Shown in pieces: positions 11,774 through 35,112 of a stretch of DNA of 41,980 bases (position 1 is its first letter; every line of letters begins with the position of its first letter). Source of the DNA: an archaeon (GTDB lineage: Archaea; B1Sed10-29; JAJSAI01). The DNA is taken from positions 1 to 41,980 of the forward strand of contig JAJSAI010000023.1 in assembly GCA_024274695.1 (NCBI GenBank), given 5' to 3'. The notes beneath the pieces were generated by a model, which saw nothing but the letters and a program-made list of their open reading frames with translations, searched no databases and was not told the DNA's origin. The translations under genes were made by a program, and so were the position numbers.

Positions 11774-12922
11774 GTGATAAAGGTAGGCGTCTGCGGCAAA
11801 CCTTCCTCCGGAAAGTCCACTTTCTTTAGTGCTGCCACTATGGTTGATGTGCCCAGGGCCGCGTATCCATTCACCACCATAGAACCGAACGTGGGGATGG
11901 CAGCGGTTTCCAGGAGATGCGCGTGCCAGGACATTCCAGAGATACGCGGGAAATGCAGGCCGCGGAACTCAAGGTGCGTTAACGGAACCAGGATAATACC
12001 CATCCAGTTAGTGGACGTGGCGGGACTGGTCCCAGGAGCACACTTAGGAAAGGGCATGGGCAACGAGTTCTTGAGCGACTTGATCGACGCGGAGGCCCTC
12101 GTGCACGTGGTTGACCTGAGCGGGACCACAAACGAAAAAGGAGAACCCGCAGAGGGATACGATCCCGGGAACGACATAGAGTGGTTGCAGGACGAGATAG
12201 ATTACTGGATAAAAGGGATCCTTGACAGGAACTGGAAGAACATTGAGAGGAAGGCTAAAACAAGACCCTTGTGGGAATGTGTTTTTGAACAAGTCAGCGG
12301 CCTGAGGATTGACCCAGAAAAAGTGAAAGGGATCGTTGAGTCGGGGTTCTCAGACACTCTTGATCTCGCGAGGAGGATAAGGGAGGCCAACAAACCGATC
12401 GTGCTGGCAGGGAACAAGATAGACCTGCCTTCAGCCAAAGAAAACTACGAGCGGCTGAAGAAAGAGTACGATATAATCCCTGTGTCGGCAGAAGCCGAGC
12501 TGGCCCTCAGGAAGGCGGAAAAAGCGGGCCTGATAAGGTATTACGGGAACGATTTTGAGATCTTGAAAAACCTTTCCCCGGCGCAGGAGAAGGCGCTGCA
12601 GGCCATCAGGGAAAACGTGCTAGAACCATACGGGTCCACGGGAGTCCAGGAGGTGCTGAATAGGACAGTGTTCCAGGTACTCGGATACATTGTGGTCTAT
12701 CCCGTGGAGGATGAAAGGAGGTACTCTGACAAGAACGGGAACGTGCTGCCTGACGCGGTGCTGATGAAGAAGGGATCCACGGTAATACATCTCGCTGAAA
12801 AGGTGCACTCTTACCTTGCGAGAGGGTTTATCGCGGCTGTTGACTGCAGGACAAAAAGAAAAATCGGTAGGGACCACGTCCTATCCGACTCGGACATAAT
12901 AAGCATAAAAGCAAGGTCTTAA
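11774..12922 (+). CDS. YchF/OLA1-related GTPase with TGS domain, archaeal type
   Basis: A TRAFAC-class P-loop NTPase of the Obg/YchF group, 382 residues, related to archaeal MJ1332. G1 is GKPSSGKST at the N-terminus, G2 lies in YPFTTIEPN, G3 is DVAGLVPGAH, and G4 is NKID. Bacterial YchF has NMxE at G4 and prefers ATP; NKID predicts GTP here. A Cys-rich insert (CACQDIPEIRGKCRPRNSRC) follows G2, and the C-terminal 80 residues form a TGS domain. A ribosome-associated role is likely from the family. The GTG start at 11774 has GGGGGAG 6 nt upstream. Its TAA shares the bases TTAA with the stop of the convergent gene. Confidence 0.88.
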   Translation: MIKVGVCGKPSSGKSTFFSAATMVDVPRAAYPFTTIEPNVGMAAVSRRCACQDIPEIRGKCRPRNSRCVNGTRIIPIQLVDVAGLVPGAHLGKGMGNEFLSDLIDAEALVHVVDLSGTTNEKGEPAEGYDPGNDIEWLQDEIDYWIKGILDRNWKNIERKAKTRPLWECVFEQVSGLRIDPEKVKGIVESGFSDTLDLARRIREANKPIVLAGNKIDLPSAKENYERLKKEYDIIPVSAEAELALRKAEKAGLIRYYGNDFEILKNLSPAQEKALQAIRENVLEPYGSTGVQEVLNRTVFQVLGYIVVYPVEDERRYSDKNGNVLPDAVLMKKGSTVIHLAEKVHSYLARGFIAAVDCRTKRKIGRDHVLSDSDIISIKARS

Positions 12923-13194
12923 AAGGGGAACAGGCTTCCGCCCGGCTTGTCGTCCTCCTGTTCCTCGTCCCCAGGAAAGCTTATTTTTTCCACCTGGAAC
13001 TTTTTCTCCCTCTCCTCAAGCTCTTCTCTCGCCCTCTGCATCTCCTCTTTTTTGTTCTGCAGTCTTGTGAGGGTGTAGAAGTACGCGTTTATTATGGTGT
13101 CCAGGCCCATCTGCCTTTTCTCTCCTCTCTGGGAGACCTCTTGCACGTACAACTGGACTATCTTGAACGCCATTTCCTCCACGGGGTCAATCAT
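12919..13194 (-). CDS. Small acidic coiled-coil protein, unknown
   Basis: A 91-residue protein without a recognised family. The first half is helical (IDPVEEMAFKIVQLYVQEV), the middle is a heptad-like charged coil (residues about 48-72, rich in Glu, Lys and Arg), and the tail is acidic ending in GGSLFPF. It is the last gene of a three-gene minus-strand operon; its start overlaps the preceding gene by 8 nt. Its 3' end overlaps the GTPase gene by 4 bp. Its fixed place beside two other coiled-coil proteins suggests they form one complex. Confidence 0.7.
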   Translation of the reverse strand: MIDPVEEMAFKIVQLYVQEVSQRGEKRQMGLDTIINAYFYTLTRLQNKKEEMQRAREELEEREKKFQVEKISFPGDEEQEDDKPGGSLFPF

Positions 13195-13813
13195 TCTTCT
13201 TCCCCTCCTCCGCCTTTTGGAGTATCGCGAGCTCTTCCGCGGTTATCTTTTCTCCTGCGAGGAACTTTTTCATTATCTTGTCCGCGAGCTCGCTCACCTC
13301 TTCCGCGGGCATCTCCTTGGAGTACCCGACGGTTATTATCTTGCTCTCTCCTTTTTTAGCCTCTTTAGGGACTTTCTCCAACAGTTTTTCAAGCTTCTTC
13401 TCGTGGGCTTCTATTTCCTTATGAAGTTCTTTCATCTGCTTTGACAGTTCAGCGAGCCTGTTCTCCGCGGCCTGAAGTTCTTCCTTCCAGTGCCTGGACT
13501 TGAAGAAATTCTTCTTCATGGTCCGCAGTTTTTCAAGCTCTGCCTCCATCTCATCCAAGCGCGCGACTATCTCCTTCTCGCGGGACATGGGCGTTTGTCC
13601 CGTCTGGTACTTGAAGTACAAGGACTTGTATTTCCTTTCAAGCTCCTTGAGCCTTCTTCCAGGAGGCTTGACCTCGCCTACTTTCTCCAGTTTTGATTTT
13701 AGGAACTTGATCCTCCTTTCAAGAAGGGATTTCTCTTTCCTCAGGTTACGCAGGTTTTGTCTTTTTTCTTTTAACACTTTCTTCTCTTCTGATATTTTCT
13801 GGCTTATGTTCAT
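13187..13813 (-). CDS. Coiled-coil protein, unknown
   Basis: A 208-residue, highly charged protein that is almost wholly coiled coil from the start to about residue 150 (two long Lys/Glu-rich heptad stretches split by a Gly/Pro-containing linker near residues 46-52 and another around 75). The C-terminal 55 residues look globular: GESKIITVGYSK, then a short helical pair (VSELADKIMKKFLAGEKITAEELAIL). The family resembles archaeal coiled-coil proteins of unassigned function. It overlaps the genes on both sides (4 nt upstream as ATGA, 8 nt downstream), so it is co-translated with them. The long coils suggest a scaffold or tether between the membrane protein at 13810-14529 and a soluble partner. 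Confidence 0.75.
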   Translation of the reverse strand: MNISQKISEEKKVLKEKRQNLRNLRKEKSLLERRIKFLKSKLEKVGEVKPPGRRLKELERKYKSLYFKYQTGQTPMSREKEIVARLDEMEAELEKLRTMKKNFFKSRHWKEELQAAENRLAELSKQMKELHKEIEAHEKKLEKLLEKVPKEAKKGESKIITVGYSKEMPAEEVSELADKIMKKFLAGEKITAEELAILQKAEEGKKND

Positions 13814-14529
13814 CGTGCTCCCTCTTTTTTCATCCAGTCTAGACCATACTCCTTATACTCCTTGGTCTGCGTGGACAGGTAAACGTCAACACCAAACTTG
13901 GCGAACACCGCGCCCAAGATTATCATGACCGCGTAAACGGACATGGGCACGAGGTCTGTGGAAAGCGCGAACTTTGAGAGCATGGCGTGAAGTCCCAGGA
14001 AAGAGTACAGGGCGATAAGTGATCCTGAGAGCATTAGCACTATAGAAACCATTATCTTTGTGGTTCCCTTGACCTTCATCTGGTTCAACTGCTTTTGGAC
14101 GTCCTGCACTGCGGAGTTGAACTGTATCTTGAAGTTAAACAGGTCCGACTTCACTGACTCCACCATTGCTTTCATGTCCTCTATCTTTTTCTCTAGGACC
14201 TCGTGTCTTTCCATGGATTTAAGGTCTGTCTTGAGCAGGATTTCTTTTTCTGTTTTTCTGAGCTCTTCTCTCAGGAAGGACTCGAAGTTCTTTTTTTCTT
14301 CCTCAAAGAGCCTGTGGACCTCAAGCTTTAGTTTGGAGGCAAGGTACCCCTCGTACTCTTTTTTCACCTGCTCGTATACCCTTCTGGCCTCTGATTCTGA
14401 GAGCCCTGTGCTCACGAGCGTGGTTATTATCTTGTCCTCTGGAACGCTCCGTGTTATCATTTCCAGGACTACGTCAGAAAGCTTTCTTGAAGGCGTCTCT
14501 TGTGCTTCCTTTTTGCCGAAAAGAGGCAT
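13810..14529 (-). CDS. Membrane-anchored coiled-coil protein, unknown
   Basis: A 239-residue protein with three parts. Residues about 15-60 form a small helical domain (VVLEMITRSVPEDKIITTLV, then GLSESEARRVYEQV) that looks like a UBA-type three-helix bundle. Residues about 60-155 are coiled coil. Two transmembrane segments follow (near 159-180 and 190-215), with both ends in the cytoplasm. It leads the operon 14529-12919. The run TTTAAAAAATT (14551-14561) is centred about 25 nt before the ATG, predicting a leaderless transcript. No enzyme motif is visible; the architecture suggests a membrane platform that recruits a soluble partner. Confidence 0.75.
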   Translation of the reverse strand: MPLFGKKEAQETPSRKLSDVVLEMITRSVPEDKIITTLVSTGLSESEARRVYEQVKKEYEGYLASKLKLEVHRLFEEEKKNFESFLREELRKTEKEILLKTDLKSMERHEVLEKKIEDMKAMVESVKSDLFNFKIQFNSAVQDVQKQLNQMKVKGTTKIMVSIVLMLSGSLIALYSFLGLHAMLSKFALSTDLVPMSVYAVMIILGAVFAKFGVDVYLSTQTKEYKEYGLDWMKKEGAR

Positions 14530-14618: not shown

Positions 14619-15152
14619 GTGCCCGTGTGGCTGTCTGCATCGGCGGGCGTCGCGGTGATCGTGACGGGCCTGCTGTTGTTCGGGAGCATAACGAGCATGC
14701 GGCCGGGACAGGAGTGGAACACTCTCCTGGCGCACTACAACACCACCGAGACAGTGTACAGGATGGAGCACGGGTTCGAAAACGCGGTCAGGGAGAGTAT
14801 TACTCCGGGGCTGTCGGAACCAGAACAGGTGACCAGAACCTGTGAGAGTGTCTGGACCTGGGCGTCGGGGGAGAAAGTCAGAGTCAGAGTCTTCTTCGGC
14901 CTGGAGACCTTCGGGTTTAGGGAAAACATTGTGAACAGGCTCTCTGACGAAGGCAGAAGACTTCTGAGGGTGACCTTGGAAACGTGCCCGTGGGCGTGCG
15001 CGGCTGTCCTCCGGCGGGATACCCGGGGGTGTATTGTGATTAGGAACGACGGCCTGGTGTCAGGAAGAGGGATGGTCGCCGTGGGCATTATCCTAGAGAA
15101 GGAGGGCGTCAGGACTGTTATTCCCGAGGGGAGGGTATTCTGCGGAGGGTGA
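14619..15152 (+). CDS. Secreted pilin-like protein, unknown
   Basis: A 177-residue protein with a short hydrophobic N-terminus (LSASAGVAVIVTGLLLFGSI) and a soluble, Cys-containing extracellular domain. It starts at GTG 14619 or GTG 14625; a stop lies only three codons upstream, so nothing longer is possible. A T-rich promoter near 14595-14603 (TTTTTATCC) fits a leaderless message from the second GTG. It lacks the class III signal motif itself but lies 4 nt before a gene that has it, and the overall shape (N-terminal helix, small beta-rich domain) is like a minor pilin. Gene symbol and partner are unknown. Confidence 0.65.
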   Translation: MPVWLSASAGVAVIVTGLLLFGSITSMRPGQEWNTLLAHYNTTETVYRMEHGFENAVRESITPGLSEPEQVTRTCESVWTWASGEKVRVRVFFGLETFGFRENIVNRLSDEGRRLLRVTLETCPWACAAVLRRDTRGCIVIRNDGLVSGRGMVAVGIILEKEGVRTVIPEGRVFCGG

Positions 15153-15156
15153 GACC

Positions 15157-15525
15157 TTGAGAGGACAGTACTCCCTGGAGTTCATGCTGATTTCAGCGGT
15201 TTTCCTAGTGTTCTTGGTACTCCTGCTACACCCTGTGAGCCTGCTGCTGGCAGGGTCAAGAGACGTTGCCGAAAAAGAGAATGCCAGAACCCTTCTGGAA
15301 TCCTGCGCCCGAAAGTGCAGGGAGGCGAGCGTGTTCGGCGCTAGTTCAAGGCTGGAGGTAATCTCCCTGACCAAAGGAAGGCTGGCCTCAACGGGAAACA
15401 GGCTCGTTTACACTACAAGAGAGTTTAACGTGTCCATCAGCCCTTTTAGGTGCGCTGTGGACTTAAACATTTCCAGAGGAAAGAACATGGTAGTTATTCA
15501 CGCGCCTGATCCCGAAATGCACTAG
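15157..15525 (+). CDS. Type IV pilin-like protein with class III signal peptide
   Basis: A 122-residue protein beginning MRGQYSLEFMLI. This is the archaeal class III (EppA-type) signal: a short basic leader cut after Gly, followed by the QxSxExxxL pattern, with the hydrophobic helix continuing to about residue 30. Such proteins assemble through their N-terminal helices into type IV pilus-like fibres or remain as membrane-anchored minor subunits. The extracellular part has three Cys, two of them close together (CARKC), perhaps forming a disulfide. The TTG start at 15157 is set by GGAGGGTGA (15144-15152), which overlaps the preceding stop. The 3' end overlaps the convergent gene by 63 bp. Confidence 0.8.
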   Translation: MRGQYSLEFMLISAVFLVFLVLLLHPVSLLLAGSRDVAEKENARTLLESCARKCREASVFGASSRLEVISLTKGRLASTGNRLVYTTREFNVSISPFRCAVDLNISRGKNMVVIHAPDPEMH

Positions 15526-15825
15526 TCTTCCAGCGCACTCTCTTACAAAGTTTATCTGTCCGCAGTTCTTCTGAACGCAGTATTCAAGTCCGCTGGCTTC
15601 CACTACACTAAAGCACTCTGGCACGGGAGTCCCCCTAGTGCAGCATGCCTCCAGAACATCCTGGCCGAGAGCATATGCTTCCAGGGGTGATGTGTTCTCC
15701 CCAGGTCCTGCGGACGCCACGACAAAAGCGCTCCAAACGCACACGAGCGCGAAGACAAAGGCGTCGTACGCCATGAACTGCCCCTTGCGCTTCCGCAGAC
15801 TACTCGCCGCAGAGCACGATCGCAT
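15463..15825 (-). CDS. Secreted pilin-like protein with variant class III-like signal
   Basis: About 120 residues from the ATG at 15825 (an ATG at 15840 gives 125). A basic stretch RKRKG precedes QFMAYDAFVFALV and a hydrophobic helix, a layout like the class III prepilin signal but with Asp at position +6 instead of Ser+3 and Glu+5. The extracellular domain contains at least six Cys (CC, CF, YC, NC, EC), unusual for a cytoplasmic protein of an archaeon and consistent with disulfides outside. It overlaps the stop of the upstream gene by 26 nt and the convergent pilin gene at 15157-15525 by 63 nt. Confidence 0.7.
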   Translation of the reverse strand: MRSCSAASSLRKRKGQFMAYDAFVFALVCVWSAFVVASAGPGENTSPLEAYALGQDVLEACCTRGTPVPECFSVVEASGLEYCVQKNCGQINFVRECAGRLVHFGIRRVNNYHVLSSGNV

Positions 15826-16180
15826 GCACTTCACCTGCAAGCAGTCCTGCTCTTTTCACGCACGCCTTGCCCGGGACTGGTTCCAGCCATGCTCTGCGGA
15901 GCCCCAGCCTCCGCCCGAGGTCTTCAGGAGAAAGGGACTTCAGGAACCTTAGCTTGGAAGGGTCTATGACGTGGTGGAAGACCTTGTTCTGATCGTATAC
16001 TGCCAGGCCCTTTTCTGCGCTGGTCATCAGCAGTTCTGACGCGAGGAGGACTCTTATCTTCCGGCAGTAGTCAGCGTACTCTCCGGCCCTGTTGTATGCT
16101 GTCGCGTGAGAAACGCTAGTGAAAAACACGAGCGCTGCGAGGACTACCAGAAGAGAGGCAGGGGCTTCCAGCACGTTCAC
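15800..16180 (-). CDS. Small secreted protein in pilin-like cluster
   Basis: A 126-residue protein with an N-terminal hydrophobic helix (ASLLVVLAALVFF) followed by an extracellular domain with three Cys and a basic middle. The start GTG at 16180 overlaps the TGA of the gene before it (GTGA). A second GTG at 16189 would add MAQ and give a Q-containing leader reminiscent of, but not matching, the class III motif. It belongs to a five-gene minus-strand run (16840 to 15463) whose members overlap by 4 to 26 nt. Function unknown beyond a likely place in the pilus-like assembly. Confidence 0.68.
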   Translation of the reverse strand: MNVLEAPASLLVVLAALVFFTSVSHATAYNRAGEYADYCRKIRVLLASELLMTSAEKGLAVYDQNKVFHHVIDPSKLRFLKSLSPEDLGRRLGLRRAWLEPVPGKACVKRAGLLAGEVHAIVLCGE

Positions 16181-16497
16181 TTGAGCCACCTTTTTTCCGC
16201 GAGTACCCTGATCCCTTCTCTCCCGGGCACAAGTTCTCCAGCGCAATCGTAGGAGTACTCTCCAGAGGTAAGGGAGCCTGCCGCCAGTTCTGTTCCTTGA
16301 GTGAGATTGAACGAAGCGTCGCGGTAGTCGTTGTCCAGGAATATCGTGTCGCACGCCACCTTGGCCTGCAGTAACACTTTTTTCGCGTTCGCTGACGCTA
16401 TTAGTTCTCTGGAGCCCTTGACCGGGAGGGATGATGCGATTAGTATGGACGTGCTGATCCAGCACGAGAGCACGAGCATTGTTTCTAAGGAGTTCAT
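16177..16497 (-). CDS. Pilin-like secreted protein starting at its cleavage-site motif
   Basis: A 106-residue protein that begins MNSLETMLVLS. The SxE spacing and following hydrophobic helix match the class III motif QxSxExxxL, but the initiator Met occupies the position of Gln+1, so no leader or basic residues precede it. An in-frame stop lies eight codons upstream with no start codon between, and the ATG overlaps the TGA of the preceding gene (ATGA), so this start is firm. Either it is inserted without prepilin peptidase cleavage or the pro-region has been lost. The ectodomain has two Cys (ACDT and YDCAG), possibly a disulfide. Confidence 0.75.
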   Translation of the reverse strand: MNSLETMLVLSCWISTSILIASSLPVKGSRELIASANAKKVLLQAKVACDTIFLDNDYRDASFNLTQGTELAAGSLTSGEYSYDCAGELVPGREGIRVLAEKRWLK

Positions 16498-16667
16498 GGT
16501 CTTTTCCTCAGCATCTCAAGCGCTTTCCGGGAATTGGACTTGGCCCTTGACACGGCTTTTGATGACGTGCTCGTGTACGATGAGACAAACCATGCTGCCA
16601 CGAGCAGTACTGCCGCAAGCACGAGGATCGTTTCCAGTGACACCTGAGCTCTCGCGTCCATTCTCAT
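16494..16667 (-). CDS. Short pilin-like protein with class III signal peptide
   Basis: A 57-residue protein, MRMDARAQVSLETILVL at its start. The basic leader (R-M-D-A-R-A) followed by QVSLETILVL is a clear class III signal peptide with the QxSxExxxL pattern. After one hydrophobic helix (to about residue 28) only a Ser/Lys/Arg-rich tail of about 29 residues remains, with no room for a globular domain. Its size and shape fit a minor or main filament subunit made of little more than the helix. Start overlaps the preceding TGA by 4 nt (ATGA). Confidence 0.85.
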   Translation of the reverse strand: MRMDARAQVSLETILVLAAVLLVAAWFVSSYTSTSSKAVSRAKSNSRKALEMLRKRP

Positions 16668-16840
16668 CCTTCCGCGAGTATTTCATCTATTTCTTTCAGC
16701 AGAGCGTCCGACTTGTTGCTCATGCTAGCAGAAGCTTTTCTGGCGGTTGTTTTCATGCTAGTGACCAGCAGGATGGCTACTGCGAGCACGGCCGCGATTA
16801 GGATCAGGAGCTCTGCGGAAACCTGCCCTCTTTTGTCCAT
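16664..16840 (-). CDS. Short pilin-like protein with class III signal peptide
   Basis: A 58-residue protein beginning MDKRGQVSAELLILIA. The leader MDKRG ends in Gly and is followed by QVSAELLIL, an exact QxSxExxxL class III motif for an EppA-type prepilin peptidase. A hydrophobic helix to about residue 27 is followed by a short charged tail (KTTARKASASMSNKSDALL). It is the first gene of the minus-strand pilin-like operon and is a close structural match to the next gene (16494-16667), probably a paralogue. The ATG lies about 27 nt after a TATA-like box, predicting a leaderless transcript. Confidence 0.87.
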   Translation of the reverse strand: MDKRGQVSAELLILIAAVLAVAILLVTSMKTTARKASASMSNKSDALLKEIDEILAEG

Positions 16841-18520: not shown

Positions 18521-19990
18521 TTACTTCCTCAGTAACAGTACTACCACCACAGCCGCGCCGAGCAGTGCGAGTAAGACCTCCAGGCTGTACCCTGGAGCGC
18601 TCGTGACCACAACCGTTCCTGACTGAGGAGTGCTGACGGTCACGGTGGTGGAGTTGTACGCCCAGTTGCCCGCTGGGTCAGAACAGTTAGCCCAAGCGGT
18701 GTGCGCCCCGGAAGACTGGGGAGTGTAAACGTAGTAGTATGTTCCTCCGCCTGAAGAGTTCATGGTGCCTATGGGAGACCCGTCCCAGTAGAACGTGCAG
18801 TTGGACACTCCCACGTTGTCCGTGGCGTTGACGGTGAAGTTGGTCGCCTGCCCGAGCGTTGCAACCGTGGGATAGACTTGAGTAACGTTTGGCGGTGTGA
18901 GGTCCTCTCCTATCGCGTAAAGGTGAGTGTCAGCAGTGAAGTACACCATCCCTCCCGAGACCGCAGGGGAAGCGGACACATCATAGGCTGCCTGGTACTT
19001 CCAGATAAGCGCGCCCGTGCTAGCGTTCAGCGCGTAGAGGTTATCGTCAGCGGACCCGAAGTACACCACCCCGTTCGCGACCGCGGGAGCAGATTCTATA
19101 AGGTCCCCGGTAGTGTACGACCATATCTCTGTCCCGTTGTCCGCGTACAGCGCGTGGAACACTCCTGAAGAATCGCCTATGTAGAGAACTCCGTTCCAGA
19201 CGGCGCTTGAGGTCGTCCAAGCGCCCAGGGTAATGTTCCACAGCTGCACGCCATTGCTTGCGTTAAGCGCGTACAGGTACGTGTTGTCAGTGATGTACAC
19301 TGTATCATTCCATATGGTCGGGGACGCGGTCAGGCTTGAGCCCGCGTAGGCGTAGCTCCACAAGAGTAGCCCGCTGGTCGCGTTAACCGCGTAGAAGTTG
19401 TCGTCCGCGGAGTCAAAGTAGACTACCCCGTTGTAGACAACGGGAGAAGAGTGCACGGCGCCTCCTGTGGTATAGTTCCAAATGGATACGCCGTTAGTCG
19501 CGTTAATCGCGTGAAGCTTGTAGTCAGGGGCTCCGATGTACACTATCCCGTCAGAAACTGCAGGGGATGATCTTATAGTGAACGTGTTCCCTGTAGTGTA
19601 GTTCCAGACCTCTGCGCCAGTGGTCGCATTAATCGCGTGGACGACCCCGTTACCGTCCCCAACAAAGACCATACCGTACGCTACCGCGGGAGTGCAGTCT
19701 AACACGCCAAAGTCTGTCCTCTGCCATATGAGCGCTCCAGTGGTCGCATTCAGGGCCTCGAATACTGCGGATGGACCGCCCGAGTACACGATCCCCCCAG
19801 CAACAACCGGGGAATTCCTTCCTAAGAACGTGGAGGAGTAGGTTCTGGTCCAATTGACCGCAGGGTTCAGGGGACCGTAGTCAGAGGTAAGCCCTGTGTT
19901 GTTAAGGTCCTTCTGGAACTTCGGCCAGTCTACAGCGGCCAGAGCAAGGGACACTGCGAGGCATAACAGCAGAACTATCTTTAGCCTCAT
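18521..19990 (-). CDS. Secreted PQQ-like beta-propeller protein with Ig-like domain and C-terminal anchor
   Basis: A 489-residue surface protein. A signal peptide (MRLKIVLLL to about residue 20) precedes about eight WD-like repeats of 40-45 residues, each with a core such as NGVVYFGSADDNLYALNA and ending LIW. They form a PQQ-enzyme/BamB-type beta-propeller, probably a binding platform rather than an enzyme because no cofactor-binding residues are evident. An Ig-like domain of about 85 residues follows (from LTPPNV), resembling the repeats of the giant protein at 30520-35112. The C-terminus has one membrane segment (LEVLLALLGAAVVVVLLL) and RK, anchoring it from outside. N-x-S/T sites are abundant. 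The ATG at 19990 is about 30 nt after TTTTAAATCC (20013-20022). Confidence 0.85.
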   Translation of the reverse strand: MRLKIVLLLCLAVSLALAAVDWPKFQKDLNNTGLTSDYGPLNPAVNWTRTYSSTFLGRNSPVVAGGIVYSGGPSAVFEALNATTGALIWQRTDFGVLDCTPAVAYGMVFVGDGNGVVHAINATTGAEVWNYTTGNTFTIRSSPAVSDGIVYIGAPDYKLHAINATNGVSIWNYTTGGAVHSSPVVYNGVVYFDSADDNFYAVNATSGLLLWSYAYAGSSLTASPTIWNDTVYITDNTYLYALNASNGVQLWNITLGAWTTSSAVWNGVLYIGDSSGVFHALYADNGTEIWSYTTGDLIESAPAVANGVVYFGSADDNLYALNASTGALIWKYQAAYDVSASPAVSGGMVYFTADTHLYAIGEDLTPPNVTQVYPTVATLGQATNFTVNATDNVGVSNCTFYWDGSPIGTMNSSGGGTYYYVYTPQSSGAHTAWANCSDPAGNWAYNSTTVTVSTPQSGTVVVTSAPGYSLEVLLALLGAAVVVVLLLRK

Positions 19991-20059
19991 GTCGTTTAGA
20001 AGGAGCAAAGGGGGATTTAAAAGATTATGTTTTTAAACTCTTTCCCCATAGGTGATATT

Positions 20060-20623
20060 ATGAGCTTCTTTTACAAGGGAGAACTGGTGCACATTTTCAT
20101 TTCCATTTTCACCATCACCTTAGCGTTCTCAATAAACTTTCTGCAGGACTTTTTCCTGGTCCTCTTCACGGTAGGCCTTGGCTTCTTCTTGCACGAGATG
20201 GGCCACAAGGCAGCTGCCATCAGGTACGGGGCTGTCGCGGTTTACAGGGCGTGGATGTGGGGGCTGGTAATGGCAGTGTTCCTGGCAGCCGCCACCCACG
20301 GCAGGTTTGTTTTCGCTGCCCCGGGCGCGGTGTACATATGGAAAGAGAATCTCACGAGAAGGGAAGATGGGATCATCTCGCTCGCGGGACCAGTGATGAA
20401 CGTCCTGCTCGCGGTTTTCTTCTTTTACCTCTTGTACGCTTTTGGAAGCATTCCCCTTGTTTTCGCGATCTCTGTTCCCGGGATTTACGTGAACCTGTTC
20501 TTAGCCCTGTTCAACCTGATCCCTGTCTACCCGTTAGACGGGTCAAAAGTGTGGGCTTACAATCCCGGCCTGTGGGCCCTGGTGACAGTACCCCTGGGCA
20601 TCGCGTTCCTCTTGCTGTTGTGA
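20060..20623 (+). CDS. M50 family site-2-type membrane metalloprotease
   Basis: A 187-residue intramembrane zinc protease with HEMGH at residues 45-49 in the second or third hydrophobic segment and NLIPVYPLDG near residue 160, the second metal ligand motif of the family (Asp in PLDG). The small size and few transmembrane segments match the minimal archaeal/bacterial S2P group without PDZ domain. Such enzymes cut membrane-bound regulators or other transmembrane helices; the substrate is unknown here. GGTGA (20051-20055) precedes ATG 20060. It is divergent from the propeller-protein gene and convergent with Cdc48. Confidence 0.88.
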   Translation: MSFFYKGELVHIFISIFTITLAFSINFLQDFFLVLFTVGLGFFLHEMGHKAAAIRYGAVAVYRAWMWGLVMAVFLAAATHGRFVFAAPGAVYIWKENLTRREDGIISLAGPVMNVLLAVFFFYLLYAFGSIPLVFAISVPGIYVNLFLALFNLIPVYPLDGSKVWAYNPGLWALVTVPLGIAFLLLL

Positions 20624-30519: not shown

Positions 30520-33500
30520 TCACTTTCTTCTCGTCATTTTCTTTCCAGCGCCGGATATGGGAGGTGTTCTCTTCTGTTTCCAGTATAGTACTGCTGAGAG
30601 CAGTACTGCCACTATTGCGACCACTCCTGCCACGAGCACCCACGTGTAGTCCTGTGCTGTTGGTGTTACCTCCTGCGCTGGTTTAGTGGGAGCCTGCGGC
30701 GCTGAAGGAGCTGCTGGCTGCTGTTCTTCCGCCGGTTTCTCCTCAGGAGCCTGTTCTTCTGGGGCTGGAGCCGCTGGCTGTTCTTCTGTTGGCGCGGTTC
30801 CTGCAACGAACACCTTGGATGCAGGCTTTTCCTCCACTATGTTCAGGTTCTTCCAGCCGCTTGTCTGGTACTCTACCGTGAGCTCGTCCCCTGGGTTCAC
30901 CTGGTCGTACACGAGCATGAACACAGGGTCTTCCCTCACGACGCGCACCGTCGCTCCCGGAGCATTCACTGTTATCTCTGAAGCGTTCGCCGCAAAGTCT
31001 TTGGGCACCTCGTCGTAGACCACGACGTTGTGCAGTGTCTCGGTTCCAGTGTACTTGAGCGTGACCTTGAGCGTTGACGCGCTCGTGCTTGAGATCATGC
31101 TCGCGGTATGAGTGAAGTCTCCGGCGTACTTGTAGGATTGTTCTGCGAGCCTGTTCAGCGCGTCCTCTGTCAGCTGCTCTCCGAGCACGTCTTCAAGAGC
31201 CTTCTTGAGGGACTCGTCACTTGTTATCTCCTGCACTACTTCCTCTGCGCTCTTGTACTCCTGCACTGGTTCTGGCTCTCCTTCCATTGTCACACTCCCT
31301 GTCGGGACGCTTCCGCCCGCGAGACCTCCTGCTGTTGTGGTGGTGGTCGTGCTTGGAATGTGATAGTTGACTTTTATGTTGTGTACTCCTGGAGAGAGGG
31401 TACCGTCCAGGAGGATAAGGCTTCCCTTCTTGTACGTTCCCTGCCATGGGGCGCCGTCAACGAGGATTTCTATCTGGTCTGCGTTCGTTATGCCTGGAAC
31501 GTCATCGTTCGTGAGTTTTATGTTACCCTGCTGTGCCATGTTTATTGTTGCACTGTAGTTGTTGTCTCCGGCGGTCCCTTGTGGAACAACCTCTTCTATT
31601 GCAGGGAAGGAGAGCAGGGCGTTTGCTTTCAGCACGAACGTTTTGCCTGCAAGCCATGCGTCAGGCAGGTCAGTGTGGTTCACTACTGCTACCGTGATCT
31701 TGTACCTGTATACTGAGAAGCAAACGGTGATGTTCGCTCCATGCGTAGGAGACCCTGATATCGCGTCCGTCACGTTATAGCACGCTGAATACGCGCTGGT
31801 CCTGGTAGCGTTTGGAGCCGCCCACGCTGTTCCGTTCCACTCTTGTAGTGTAACTCCTGACGATATGTTAAGTGTCTTCACCGTGCCGTCAGGAAGTGAA
31901 ACGGTCACGTTCTTCGGGAACACGAAGTCAAGGTACACGTTGTCCTGAGTGTAGAACTGGTTCAGCGCTGAAATGTTCACCGTGTACGTCGTGTTCACAG
32001 TAGCGCCGAGTTCAGGAGGCGCTGTTGTCGGGTCGAACCCTGTGACTGTCTGGCTTGACACGTTAATCGGAGGTATCGCGCTCAGGTAAAGGGTAACTGG
32101 CACAACAGTCTGGTTGGTGGCGTTAACCTGGAGGGTTATTACTGTTTTCCCTGACGCGAAGTCAAAGGAGAAGCTTCCGTTAATGGGCTGGCTGGCCAGG
32201 TCTCCTGTGTTAGCGTACTTCGTACCGTTGTACTCTATGGTGAACAAGTTGCTGAACCCGTACTGTCCCGGAAGAGCGTCAGGGGCTATCAGGGTCAGGT
32301 TCACTGGCCCTGCGGGGGTGTAGATAGTCTGAGTACTCACCTTCGCTGGGATGAGTCCTGGGGTGGTCAGGGTGATCGTGACGATCTCGTTTGATGCTGC
32401 AAGGTTGCTTGCGTTAAGCTGGAAAGTATAGTTGTACGCGAGGTTCTCCATGCTGGTGGCTCCCGCGAACACTGGCTTATCAGTGTATACTGGGTCCACC
32501 CAGAATCCTTCAAGGAAAGACTCGTCATCCTCCCTGTATATTGGGACAGGAACACTGTACTCGCTCCTCAGGGTGGTCAGGTTAGCGTCCTGCAGGGTTA
32601 TCTTGCTGGAATCGTAGGACTGCTTGGGCAGCCCGTTCACGACGTACACTGTCAGGTACTGGCCGGCGTTAATGTTTCCTGCCGAGTCGTTGGCCCTGAC
32701 CGCGAAGGTGTAAACTCCGGACTGGGAGGGAGTGAACTGGCAGTTCACTGGTGACGTTCCCGTGCATGAGTATACTGTGGTGTTGGTCATGTCAATAACA
32801 CTAACCACTGTAGTGTTCACTCCTGACGTGGCGTCAGTGACGGTCACGGGAACAGTGATCGCTTCTCCTGCTGTAGTGTACCATCTTCCGTTTATCTGGA
32901 CCGCGTTGGTGACTGCACCGAACGAAACTGCAGGGGGCGTGTTGTCCACGGTAACGTTAATGGTTGAATCGCTTGACCATCCCGCCTGGTCCCCGGCGCT
33001 GAAGGTCAGGGAATACGCTCCGTCAGGCAGGCCTGAAAGGTTCCAGTGGAAGTTGCAGACTATGACTCCAGGCGCTGATCCAGATTTTGTACAACTTGTG
33101 GCCTGGCTAAAGTCTGTTGTCCCGTTTGGTGCCGAAACAGTCGCGCTTGATATGCTCGTGCCCGCGTCAGTCGCGTTCACGACCACCGTCACGTAGGAGG
33201 TGTACTGGTTGAACGCGCTGTTGTTCGCGGGAGTCTCCCACGCGATCACAGGCGGATTGTTGTCCACGTACACGGGCTGTACCCCGGTGGTGTCATTGTA
33301 GTTGCCTGCCTGGTCGGTTATGTTAAACTGGATTGCGTACATTCCGTCTGCAACACTTGCCGAGGCGAGCAGGCCCCTCCACACTCCCTGGGTCAGGTTT
33401 CCTGAGTACAGGCTCATTGCAGTCCACGGGGTCACGTTAACTCCGCTGCTCATCAGCGCAAAGTTGACGCCCGCGATTCCCGTGAAGTAGTCGGAGAAGT

Positions 33501-35112
33501 TACCGTACACGTAAGAGTTTCCTGTGATTATCCAGTTCGGAACGGTGGGGTATACTTGCCCCGCAAACTGCGGGTTCGTTAGGTCTATGTTGTACGTCCG
33601 GGTCTCTGAAACGTTCCACCAGCCCACCTGGTCAGAACAGTTCACGTACCAGTAGTGCGTTCCTTCTGCCAGTCCTGTGACTGACAGTGTTGTCGGGGTG
33701 TTGTTGGTCGCGGAGGTGTTTTGTGCTACTATCGCCCCGTCAACGTACAGGTAGCAGCTTCCTGGAACGGACATAGTGTCAGTAAAGTTGAATTGTACTG
33801 ATAGGGTGGTGCTCGTGGTGTTGGTGTCGTTGACAGGAGATCCGGACATGAGGTTAACGATGGGAGGAGTAAGGTCAACTCTTATAACCTGACTGGCGGA
33901 TTGCCCGATATTGCCCACGTTGTCAGTACAGTTAACGTAGTAGGTGTGCTCTCCTTCTGTCAGGCTTCCTGTGGAGTACACTGCGGGAGTGTTGTTCTGT
34001 TCTGTCCCTGAAGCAGTGCTCACCCCATCAACATACAGGACACACGATGCTGTCGGGGACAGAGCGTCAGTGAACGTGAAGTTAATCAGGTTGGCTGCGC
34101 TGGACGTGTTGTAGTAGTTTACTGGCGAGTTGATCGTGACCGTCGGAGGAGTCTGGTCAACGGTGATTGTTCTGATAGATGTGGTGTTAAAGTTTCCAGC
34201 AGCATCCGTACAGTTGACATAGTACTGGTGCTTTCCTTCTGAGAAGAGTTGGGAGATCCCTAAACTGGTTTGAGGCAGTGGAACTGTCCCTCCGTTACCT
34301 TGAGAGCCATCAACGTACACATAACAGGTCGCGTTTGGCGATAGGTTATCCGTTACGTTAATGGTTATGCTGTTAACCGCGGAGGAAGTGTTGTAGTTGT
34401 CAACTGGGCTCAGTTGCGCTACTGCGGGGGGAGTCCAGTCCACGTGGAAGGTTACTGTTTCTGAAATGTTCTGGTTCCCTGAACCTCCTAACACGTTGGA
34501 GACCGCGTTATCCCAACATGTTATGTTGAATGTGTAGTCGTTCTCTGATTTAGAAAGCGTGAACACTGTTGGCGTGTTGTTCAGGACACTCGTGTTAGAG
34601 TATATCACAGCACCGTTTTCGGTAACGTTACATGTGAGGTTGGACGCCAGAACATCAACCGCGGTAAAGTTGTACAGGACAGTTGAGGATGTGGTCCAAG
34701 AATCGTTGGCAGGAGCGGTGATTGTTATTGATGACGGGGGAGTGTTGTCAATTATTGCCGTCACGGTCGTGGTGTCATTATACGTTGTCCCGTTGGTAGC
34801 GTTGTACGTGAAAACCCTGGGACCGTCGGGCATTGTGGTGAGGTCGAGAACAACGCTCCAGTTCCCGCTCTGGTTAGTGCCTTCTGTGAGCGTCATTGCG
34901 ATCCAATTGCCGCCAGTACCGTTTTGTATCTGGACGCTTGTCACTTCCTCTCCTGCGGTGGTCACAACAGTCGCGCTGAAGTTATACTGACAGTACATGC
35001 GCACGTTGTCCTGCGCAGGAGTGTTCAAGGTGACTTGGATCGCACTGGCTCCTATCTGGAGCAGAAGAACAGCACACAAAAGAGACAGAACCGTCCTGCC
35101 CAAAAAACTCAT
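30520..35112 (-). CDS. Giant surface protein with Ig-like repeats and C-terminal membrane anchor
   Basis: A 1530-residue exported protein, the largest gene here. A signal peptide covers residues 1-24. Four Ig-like repeats of 94-103 residues start with TPP at about residues 124, 227, 321 and 415 and share the marks YVDG or NGT and YYVNCTD; further beta-sandwich regions follow to about residue 1150. Then come a region of different beta sequence, a DUF11-like domain (about 1320-1440), and a Pro/Ala/Glu-rich stalk of about 60 residues. A single membrane helix (about 1488-1510) and a basic tail KKMTRRK end it. Dozens of N-x-S/T sites suggest heavy N-glycosylation. Likely an S-layer-associated or adhesin protein; the exact role is unknown. 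The promoter is at 35145-35156 and AGGTGA (35120-35125) is the ribosome-binding site. Confidence 0.88.
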   Translation of the reverse strand: MSFLGRTVLSLLCAVLLLQIGASAIQVTLNTPAQDNVRMYCQYNFSATVVTTAGEEVTSVQIQNGTGGNWIAMTLTEGTNQSGNWSVVLDLTTMPDGPRVFTYNATNGTTYNDTTTVTAIIDNTPPSSITITAPANDSWTTSSTVLYNFTAVDVLASNLTCNVTENGAVIYSNTSVLNNTPTVFTLSKSENDYTFNITCWDNAVSNVLGGSGNQNISETVTFHVDWTPPAVAQLSPVDNYNTSSAVNSITINVTDNLSPNATCYVYVDGSQGNGGTVPLPQTSLGISQLFSEGKHQYYVNCTDAAGNFNTTSIRTITVDQTPPTVTINSPVNYYNTSSAANLINFTFTDALSPTASCVLYVDGVSTASGTEQNNTPAVYSTGSLTEGEHTYYVNCTDNVGNIGQSASQVIRVDLTPPIVNLMSGSPVNDTNTTSTTLSVQFNFTDTMSVPGSCYLYVDGAIVAQNTSATNNTPTTLSVTGLAEGTHYWYVNCSDQVGWWNVSETRTYNIDLTNPQFAGQVYPTVPNWIITGNSYVYGNFSDYFTGIAGVNFALMSSGVNVTPWTAMSLYSGNLTQGVWRGLLASASVADGMYAIQFNITDQAGNYNDTTGVQPVYVDNNPPVIAWETPANNSAFNQYTSYVTVVVNATDAGTSISSATVSAPNGTTDFSQATSCTKSGSAPGVIVCNFHWNLSGLPDGAYSLTFSAGDQAGWSSDSTINVTVDNTPPAVSFGAVTNAVQINGRWYTTAGEAITVPVTVTDATSGVNTTVVSVIDMTNTTVYSCTGTSPVNCQFTPSQSGVYTFAVRANDSAGNINAGQYLTVYVVNGLPKQSYDSSKITLQDANLTTLRSEYSVPVPIYREDDESFLEGFWVDPVYTDKPVFAGATSMENLAYNYTFQLNASNLAASNEIVTITLTTPGLIPAKVSTQTIYTPAGPVNLTLIAPDALPGQYGFSNLFTIEYNGTKYANTGDLASQPINGSFSFDFASGKTVITLQVNATNQTVVPVTLYLSAIPPINVSSQTVTGFDPTTAPPELGATVNTTYTVNISALNQFYTQDNVYLDFVFPKNVTVSLPDGTVKTLNISSGVTLQEWNGTAWAAPNATRTSAYSACYNVTDAISGSPTHGANITVCFSVYRYKITVAVVNHTDLPDAWLAGKTFVLKANALLSFPAIEEVVPQGTAGDNNYSATINMAQQGNIKLTNDDVPGITNADQIEILVDGAPWQGTYKKGSLILLDGTLSPGVHNIKVNYHIPSTTTTTTAGGLAGGSVPTGSVTMEGEPEPVQEYKSAEEVVQEITSDESLKKALEDVLGEQLTEDALNRLAEQSYKYAGDFTHTASMISSTSASTLKVTLKYTGTETLHNVVVYDEVPKDFAANASEITVNAPGATVRVVREDPVFMLVYDQVNPGDELTVEYQTSGWKNLNIVEEKPASKVFVAGTAPTEEQPAAPAPEEQAPEEKPAEEQQPAAPSAPQAPTKPAQEVTPTAQDYTWVLVAGVVAIVAVLLSAVLYWKQKRTPPISGAGKKMTRRK

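Follow-up and report, generated by a model that had tools for sequence, protein, structure and literature searches.

In Methanococcus maripaludis, the major pilin has 74 amino acids, 62 of them in the mature protein, and the genes for the pilus are spread over several distinct loci (PMC3875500). Among the clade 1 archaeal pili described by Makarova and colleagues, major pilins of ∼70 amino acids are encoded by stand-alone genes and are accompanied by two TadC proteins and five or more minor pilins, and archaeal ATPase/TadC pairs act on pilins in trans (PMC4858521). Short major pilins are common to Epd-like pili and bacterial Tad pili, the latter being derived from archaeal type IV pili and grouping with the Epd-like systems (PMC6668835). 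Cultivated DPANN archaea need direct contact with a host (PMC11291902). What mediates this contact is poorly known, and the pilin set described here, which is kept in two DPANN groups, names genes to test.

We analyzed a 41,980-nucleotide stretch of DNA (the window) from a tiny-genome archaeon. At positions 14619–16840 it contains seven open reading frames for small pilin-like proteins, all of them present where the original prediction had placed them and kept in relatives. We read this cluster, with a probability of roughly 0.7, as a conserved module of archaeal type IV pilins that is detached from its motor; the likeliest motor, acting in trans, is of the ferredoxin type. The seven genes and their neighbors are as follows (↓, putative cleavage site).

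E, 14619..15152, plus strand: 177-aa minor-pilin-like protein, GTG start, N-terminal helix without an acidic +5 residue
D, 15157..15525, plus strand: 122-aa putative class III pilin, RG↓QYSLEFMLI, TTG start
C, 15463..15825, minus strand: 120-aa putative minor pilin, corrected start ATG 15825, variant signal KRKG↓QFMAYD
B, 15800..16189, minus strand: ∼129-aa putative minor pilin, variant A↓QVNVLE, GTG start; a start further upstream is possible
A, 16177..16497, minus strand: 106-aa pilin-like protein that starts at the motif, MNSLETMLVL; its start codon lies inside the overlap with the S2 stop (ATGA)
S2, 16494..16667, minus strand: 57-aa putative short pilin, RA↓QVSLETILV, basic tail, mature net charge +6
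S1, 16664..16840, minus strand: 58-aa putative short pilin, RG↓QVSAELLIL, acidic tail end
K1, 13810..14529, minus strand: coiled coil and C-terminal membrane helices; syntenic neighbor, not claimed as part of the pilus
K2, 13187..13813, minus strand: coiled-coil protein; syntenic neighbor
K3, 12919..13194, minus strand: 91-aa protein; syntenic neighbor
M50, 20027..20623, plus strand: site-2-type protease (Pfam PF02163, E = 4.4e-13)

The cluster forms two convergent runs, in which S1, S2, A, B, and C are consecutive minus-strand genes that overlap head to tail, and E and D on the plus strand point toward them. The start of C is most likely ATG 15825, which gives a 120-aa product, MRSCSAASSLRKRKG↓QFMAYDAFVF, with an apparent basic leader and variant motif.

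The cluster resembles the Epd pili of M. maripaludis (PMC3875500, PMC4858521) in its tiny major pilins, its several minor pilins (130–156 aa in Epd), its glutamine at +1 and glutamate at +5, and the separation of its pilin genes from those for an ATPase and two platform proteins; for this comparison, 57 and 58 aa were counted as falling within the Epd-like size of about 60–75 aa for a major pilin. It differs from Epd in that short and minor pilins are encoded together, the mature short pilins have ∼50 aa, the minor pilins are not in Pfam or NCBIfam, the candidate motor carries 4Fe-4S domains, and no peptidase could be clearly assigned to the EppA type. Because M. maripaludis is already established to build pili from mature subunits of ∼60 residues whose genes lie apart from those for the minor pilins and the motor (PMC3875500), the new kind of short-subunit fiber that the original prediction had entertained is not needed. 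Bacterial Tad/Flp pili (PMC6668835) likewise have major pilins of very small size and a pair of platform proteins, whereas the present system is archaeal, has other minor pilins, and has its pilins apart from the motor. In methanogen-type loci (L092, L099, L120, L121, and L125), a class III pilin of 55–56 mature residues directly adjoins TadC, unlike the arrangement here, and no E-A-B-C-D set was detected there. These five loci also have an M50 gene within ∼6 kb of TadC and the tiny pilin (L121:2044–6146, L125:3253–6000, L092, L099, and L120), which echoes the adjacency of M50 and short pilin in DPANN genomes. In type II secretion systems, GspH-I-J-K is a four-gene run of minor pseudopilins that forms a tip/initiator set and has one member without Glu5. 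E-A-B-C is likewise a four-gene minor run with one member, E, without the acidic +5 residue; the two runs differ in having no detectable sequence homology, and a tip role for E-A-B-C is suggested by analogy. The principle of in trans short-subunit pili is thus known, and the novelty lies in the conserved gene set, its families of minor pilins, and the ferredoxin-fused ATPase proposed as motor; no description of these was found in the limited open-access literature searched, and the word “ferredoxin” is absent from PMC4858521.

In the mechanism that we propose, an A24 peptidase would cut the short leaders at G/A↓Q, and the mature helices would remain in the membrane after leader removal. S1 and S2, as mature pilins of ∼50 residues with a membrane-spanning helix and a charged helical tail, would be the filament subunits, whereas D, A, B, C, and E would act as minor pilins, with the E-A-B-C run as a tip/initiator-like set. 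A separately encoded ATPase and two platform proteins would then extrude the pilins as a thin surface fiber, which may function in adhesion or host contact.

The signal motifs were compared with chance expectation. In three places in the window, all of them in the cluster (S1, S2, and D), a start codon is followed by QxSxE and a hydrophobic stretch, and the same pattern had a mean of 0.015 and a maximum of 1 in 200 dinucleotide shuffles of the window. An exact QxSxExxxL signal had been claimed for all three proteins; QxSxE is indeed present in each, but reading of the residues rules out the full form for two of them, as it holds for S1 (QVSAELLIL) and not for S2 (QVSLETILV) or D (QYSLEFMLI). 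The Pfam Class_IIIsignal model scored above its cut-off with S1 (E = 6.8e-8) and below it with S2 (E = 2.8e-4) and D (E = 0.008). A begins at the motif itself (MNSLET), as predicted, and so do its counterparts in loci L064 and L077. Two proteins had been credited with an N-terminal helix only. E has no acidic +5 residue, and in C the likely earlier start adds the KRKG↓Q leader and variant motif. A, B, and C have the forms leaderless MNSLE, A↓QVNVLE, and G↓QFMAYD in the window. In many relatives, A has the canonical motif, B mostly has FSxD or a similar form at the N terminus, and C has an FSxE-like form. The E members listed, from the window and relatives, have a hydrophobic run with no aspartate or glutamate near the N terminus, and so lack a class III motif.

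The two proteins described as having almost nothing after the helix, S1 (58 aa) and S2 (57 aa), would each leave ∼50 mature residues. In an alignment of 28 members of the S family, the Q, S, and E positions are invariant and the mature length is ∼47–54 residues, which is too short for a beta domain; S1 and S2 are apparently tiny, helix-only pilins. A search of PDB sequences with the short-pilin profile gave an archaellin as its best match (E = 0.03, not significant). Eight genomes have two copies; in each, the charges of the pair are 3 or more units apart, and in seven of them one member is positive and the other zero or negative. We keep this contrast as a hint only, because the order of the two is inconstant and no null model was run.

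D, A, B, C, and E appear to represent five minor-pilin families absent from Pfam and NCBIfam. Searches of Pfam, NCBIfam, PDB sequences, and PDB folds with the minor families gave nothing significant, and neither the B family nor the tested members of the others belong to a Pfam or NCBIfam family. A long N-terminal helix followed by a globular domain is predicted in the B and E families only. The alignment-based AlphaFold2 models have, for a B member from locus L093, one helix (residues 12–61) and a domain with beta strands (pLDDT 88) and, for an E member from L085, a helix at residues 3–70, a second helix, and beta strands (pLDDT 91); both were made from relatives' sequences with shallow alignments, the window's own copies being divergent. 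Since Foldseek found no significant match in the PDB for either model, the assignment of a pilin architecture draws on secondary structure and context.

To test whether the cluster is conserved, a check that the original prediction had suggested, we looked for the same gene order in related metagenome-assembled genomes, which vary in completeness; gene calls in the compared loci were made by hand. Profile HMMs built without the window recovered as its best open reading frame E (2.4e-5), B (4.5e-11), C (3.7e-5), and D (3.9e-16). The corresponding A profile gave 1.2e-4, but three other class III reading frames outscored A; A was therefore assigned by position, as its profile is not able to separate it from other class III helices. 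D as query had weak matches in all five same-order relatives (G001–G005), and in most of these the locus, when read, was complete or almost complete. Complete or near-complete sets were also found in G006, G008, G011, G015, and G017, a partial set in G013, and only fragments, at the edges of contigs, in G007 and G014. The match coordinates in G014 are the same as those in the genome of locus L061. Overall, the gene set is present in at least 14 of the phylum's 19 genomes, the phylum presumably being Micrarchaeota, as well as in Diapherotrites-type records. A scan of GTDB genomes anchored on M50 gave 80 named loci, ∼12 of which have the same set in the arrangement E-A-B-C> <D-S(-S), with labels that are Micrarchaeota, Diapherotrites, or evidently misnamed. 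M50 often adjoins S in these loci and is a divergent neighbor of the short pilin in L065, L070, L074, L085, and L093, and K1 adjoins the cluster in several relatives. Records L077, L085, and L093 are titled Thaumarchaeota or Chloroflexota yet carry the DPANN cluster and its synteny, so the titles are probably wrong.

The gene set recurs in the relatives, and the window's order is one inversion away from theirs. The relatives have K1, E+, A+, B+, C+, D–, S–, S–, and M50+, and the window has K1, E+, D+, C–, B–, A–, S–, S–, four other genes, and M50+. Flipping the A-B-C-D segment alone turns one order into the other, leaving E and the S pair unmoved. One inversion therefore explains the window's order, and the genes are intact though their operon partners have changed.

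No assembly ATPase, platform protein, or peptidase was detected on the window's contig (C18), which extends the earlier observation that none lies near the cluster. The suggestion of a surface fiber with its machinery elsewhere is supported by the rest of the genome, although the fiber itself remains putative: both peptidase and assembly genes were found, contrary to the outcome that would have refuted the suggestion. There are two A24 prepilin peptidases, on contigs C3 and C2, both above cut-off, as well as seven T2SSE ATPases and seven T2SSF matches above cut-off. The proposed search for an EppA/PibD peptidase and a GspE/TadC-like pair thus succeeded for A24 peptidases and for several ATPase/TadC loci; the EppA type fared less well, as Arc_PepC_II (PF06847) was not found in the genome search and the C3 peptidase matched Arc_PepC (PF06819) below cut-off (E = 0.0012). 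Reading of selected stretches of the genome located an ATPase with two platform proteins on C3, C19, C26, and a candidate C9 locus. Loci of the C3, C19, and C26 types have pilins and C9a has pilin-like genes, so that these four platform-bearing ATPase types have pilins or pilin-like genes alongside.

The candidate locus (C9, ∼54–57 kb) encodes two short TadC proteins and a pilus-type T2SSE ATPase with 4Fe-4S ferredoxin domains fused to its N terminus (L034:5427–7106, C9 ∼55.4–57.1 kb of the window's genome, G000). In a maximum-likelihood ATPase tree of 48 rows, in which one gene was counted twice through overlapping stretches, the ferredoxin-type ATPases form a clade with support 100/100 that is present in 17 of the 19 genomes of the phylum; its loci pair the ATPase with two short TadC proteins, and most members keep the ferredoxin fusion, which is lost in some. 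No QxSxE (class III) pilin adjoins any of the ferredoxin-type loci read; a motif scan there gave a few non-canonical matches, in longer proteins only (L034, L141, L144, and L212). Two non-canonical pilin-like reading frames lie upstream of the L141 locus (G003) and one truncated pilin-like frame at the contig end of L034, so some pilins might belong to the ferredoxin-type motor itself. A motor without class III pilins and a pilin set without a motor, both near-universal in the phylum, suggest by elimination that the two are paired. Among 30 genomes of other phyla not chosen for the cluster, a strong B match (E < 1e-16) and a clade ATPase (at least 384 bits) were both present in G037 and G058, whose ATPases have no detected ferredoxin motif, and both absent from the other 28. 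Among 11 further, cluster-bearing genomes chosen for having B, nine have the ATPase; in G063 and G066 the cluster is present and no ferredoxin-type ATPase was detected. In G007 (67% complete), only another ATPase type was detected. In G005, the K1-K2-K3 block, instead of adjoining the cluster, lies ∼0.6 kb from an ATPase/platform pair whose ATPase is a ferredoxin-less member of the motor clade. Between K1 and the pilus ATPase, this genome also has two small reading frames resembling a HicB/HicA toxin-antitoxin pair (L142:3967–4417). As Micrarchaeota and Diapherotrites are related, their co-occurrences are not independent events, and the above counts ignore kinship. Based on co-occurrence in related lineages, from incomplete genomes, and on elimination, we put the odds that the ferredoxin-fused ATPase and two TadC proteins are the cluster's motor at a little better than even. 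Such a motor raises a testable question, whether a pilus ATPase could be under redox control. A broader scenario, in which Micrarchaeota and Diapherotrites would share a dedicated ancestral pilus that co-assembles two tiny helical pilins unlike in charge behind an initiating E-A-B-C tip and is extended under redox gating by the 4Fe-4S ATPase, is speculative and in our judgment doubtful.

The cluster could instead supply the C3-type machine (ATPase, two TadC proteins, and peptidase) with a second, interchangeable set of pilins. C3-type loci L157, L160, and L164 have similar kinds of pilins, namely two class III proteins of 51–63 aa, class III minors, and FSxD minors, and in G004 a pilin like those of C3 (L051:1–791) adjoins RfcL less than 3 kb from the cluster. 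However, C3-type loci of relatives already have tiny pilins and minors of their own, so that several pilin sets coexist; G006 (72% complete) has the full cluster and, as its sole platform pair found, the ferredoxin-type one; and a C3 pairing would leave the ferredoxin-type motor without class III pilins. We consider this alternative unlikely.

The products might form a short pseudopilus for secretion or DNA uptake instead of a long surface fiber, since five minor pilins for two tiny subunits recall T2SS/Com pseudopilus sets. ComGE models (Pfam/NCBIfam) gave weak matches to B, A, and C members, far below cut-off (E = 0.004–0.03), and no DNA-uptake or secretion-effector genes were seen beside the cluster in an unsystematic look; we regard a pseudopilus as improbable. 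That the seven are ordinary single-pass anchored proteins without a common function would fit a protein A that starts at its motif, a protein E that has none, and processing that is only predicted. The conserved set and order, the motifs, the predicted folds, and the translational overlaps all oppose this idea, which we judge very improbable, and we rejected an unrelated set of anchored proteins because of the synteny.

Other features of the window include a 495-aa secreted protein with repeated beta-propeller-like units and a C-terminal membrane helix, encoded between the pilin cluster and M50 (18521–20008, minus strand), and a surface-type protein of 1530 aa that has repeats of a bacterial Ig-like domain (Big_13, E = 1e-20) and a membrane helix at its C terminus (30520–35112, minus strand). 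Positions 739–1263 are a low-complexity repeat region that in another frame would encode a lysine-rich repeat protein, and a similar repeat is present at L057:6472–6681.
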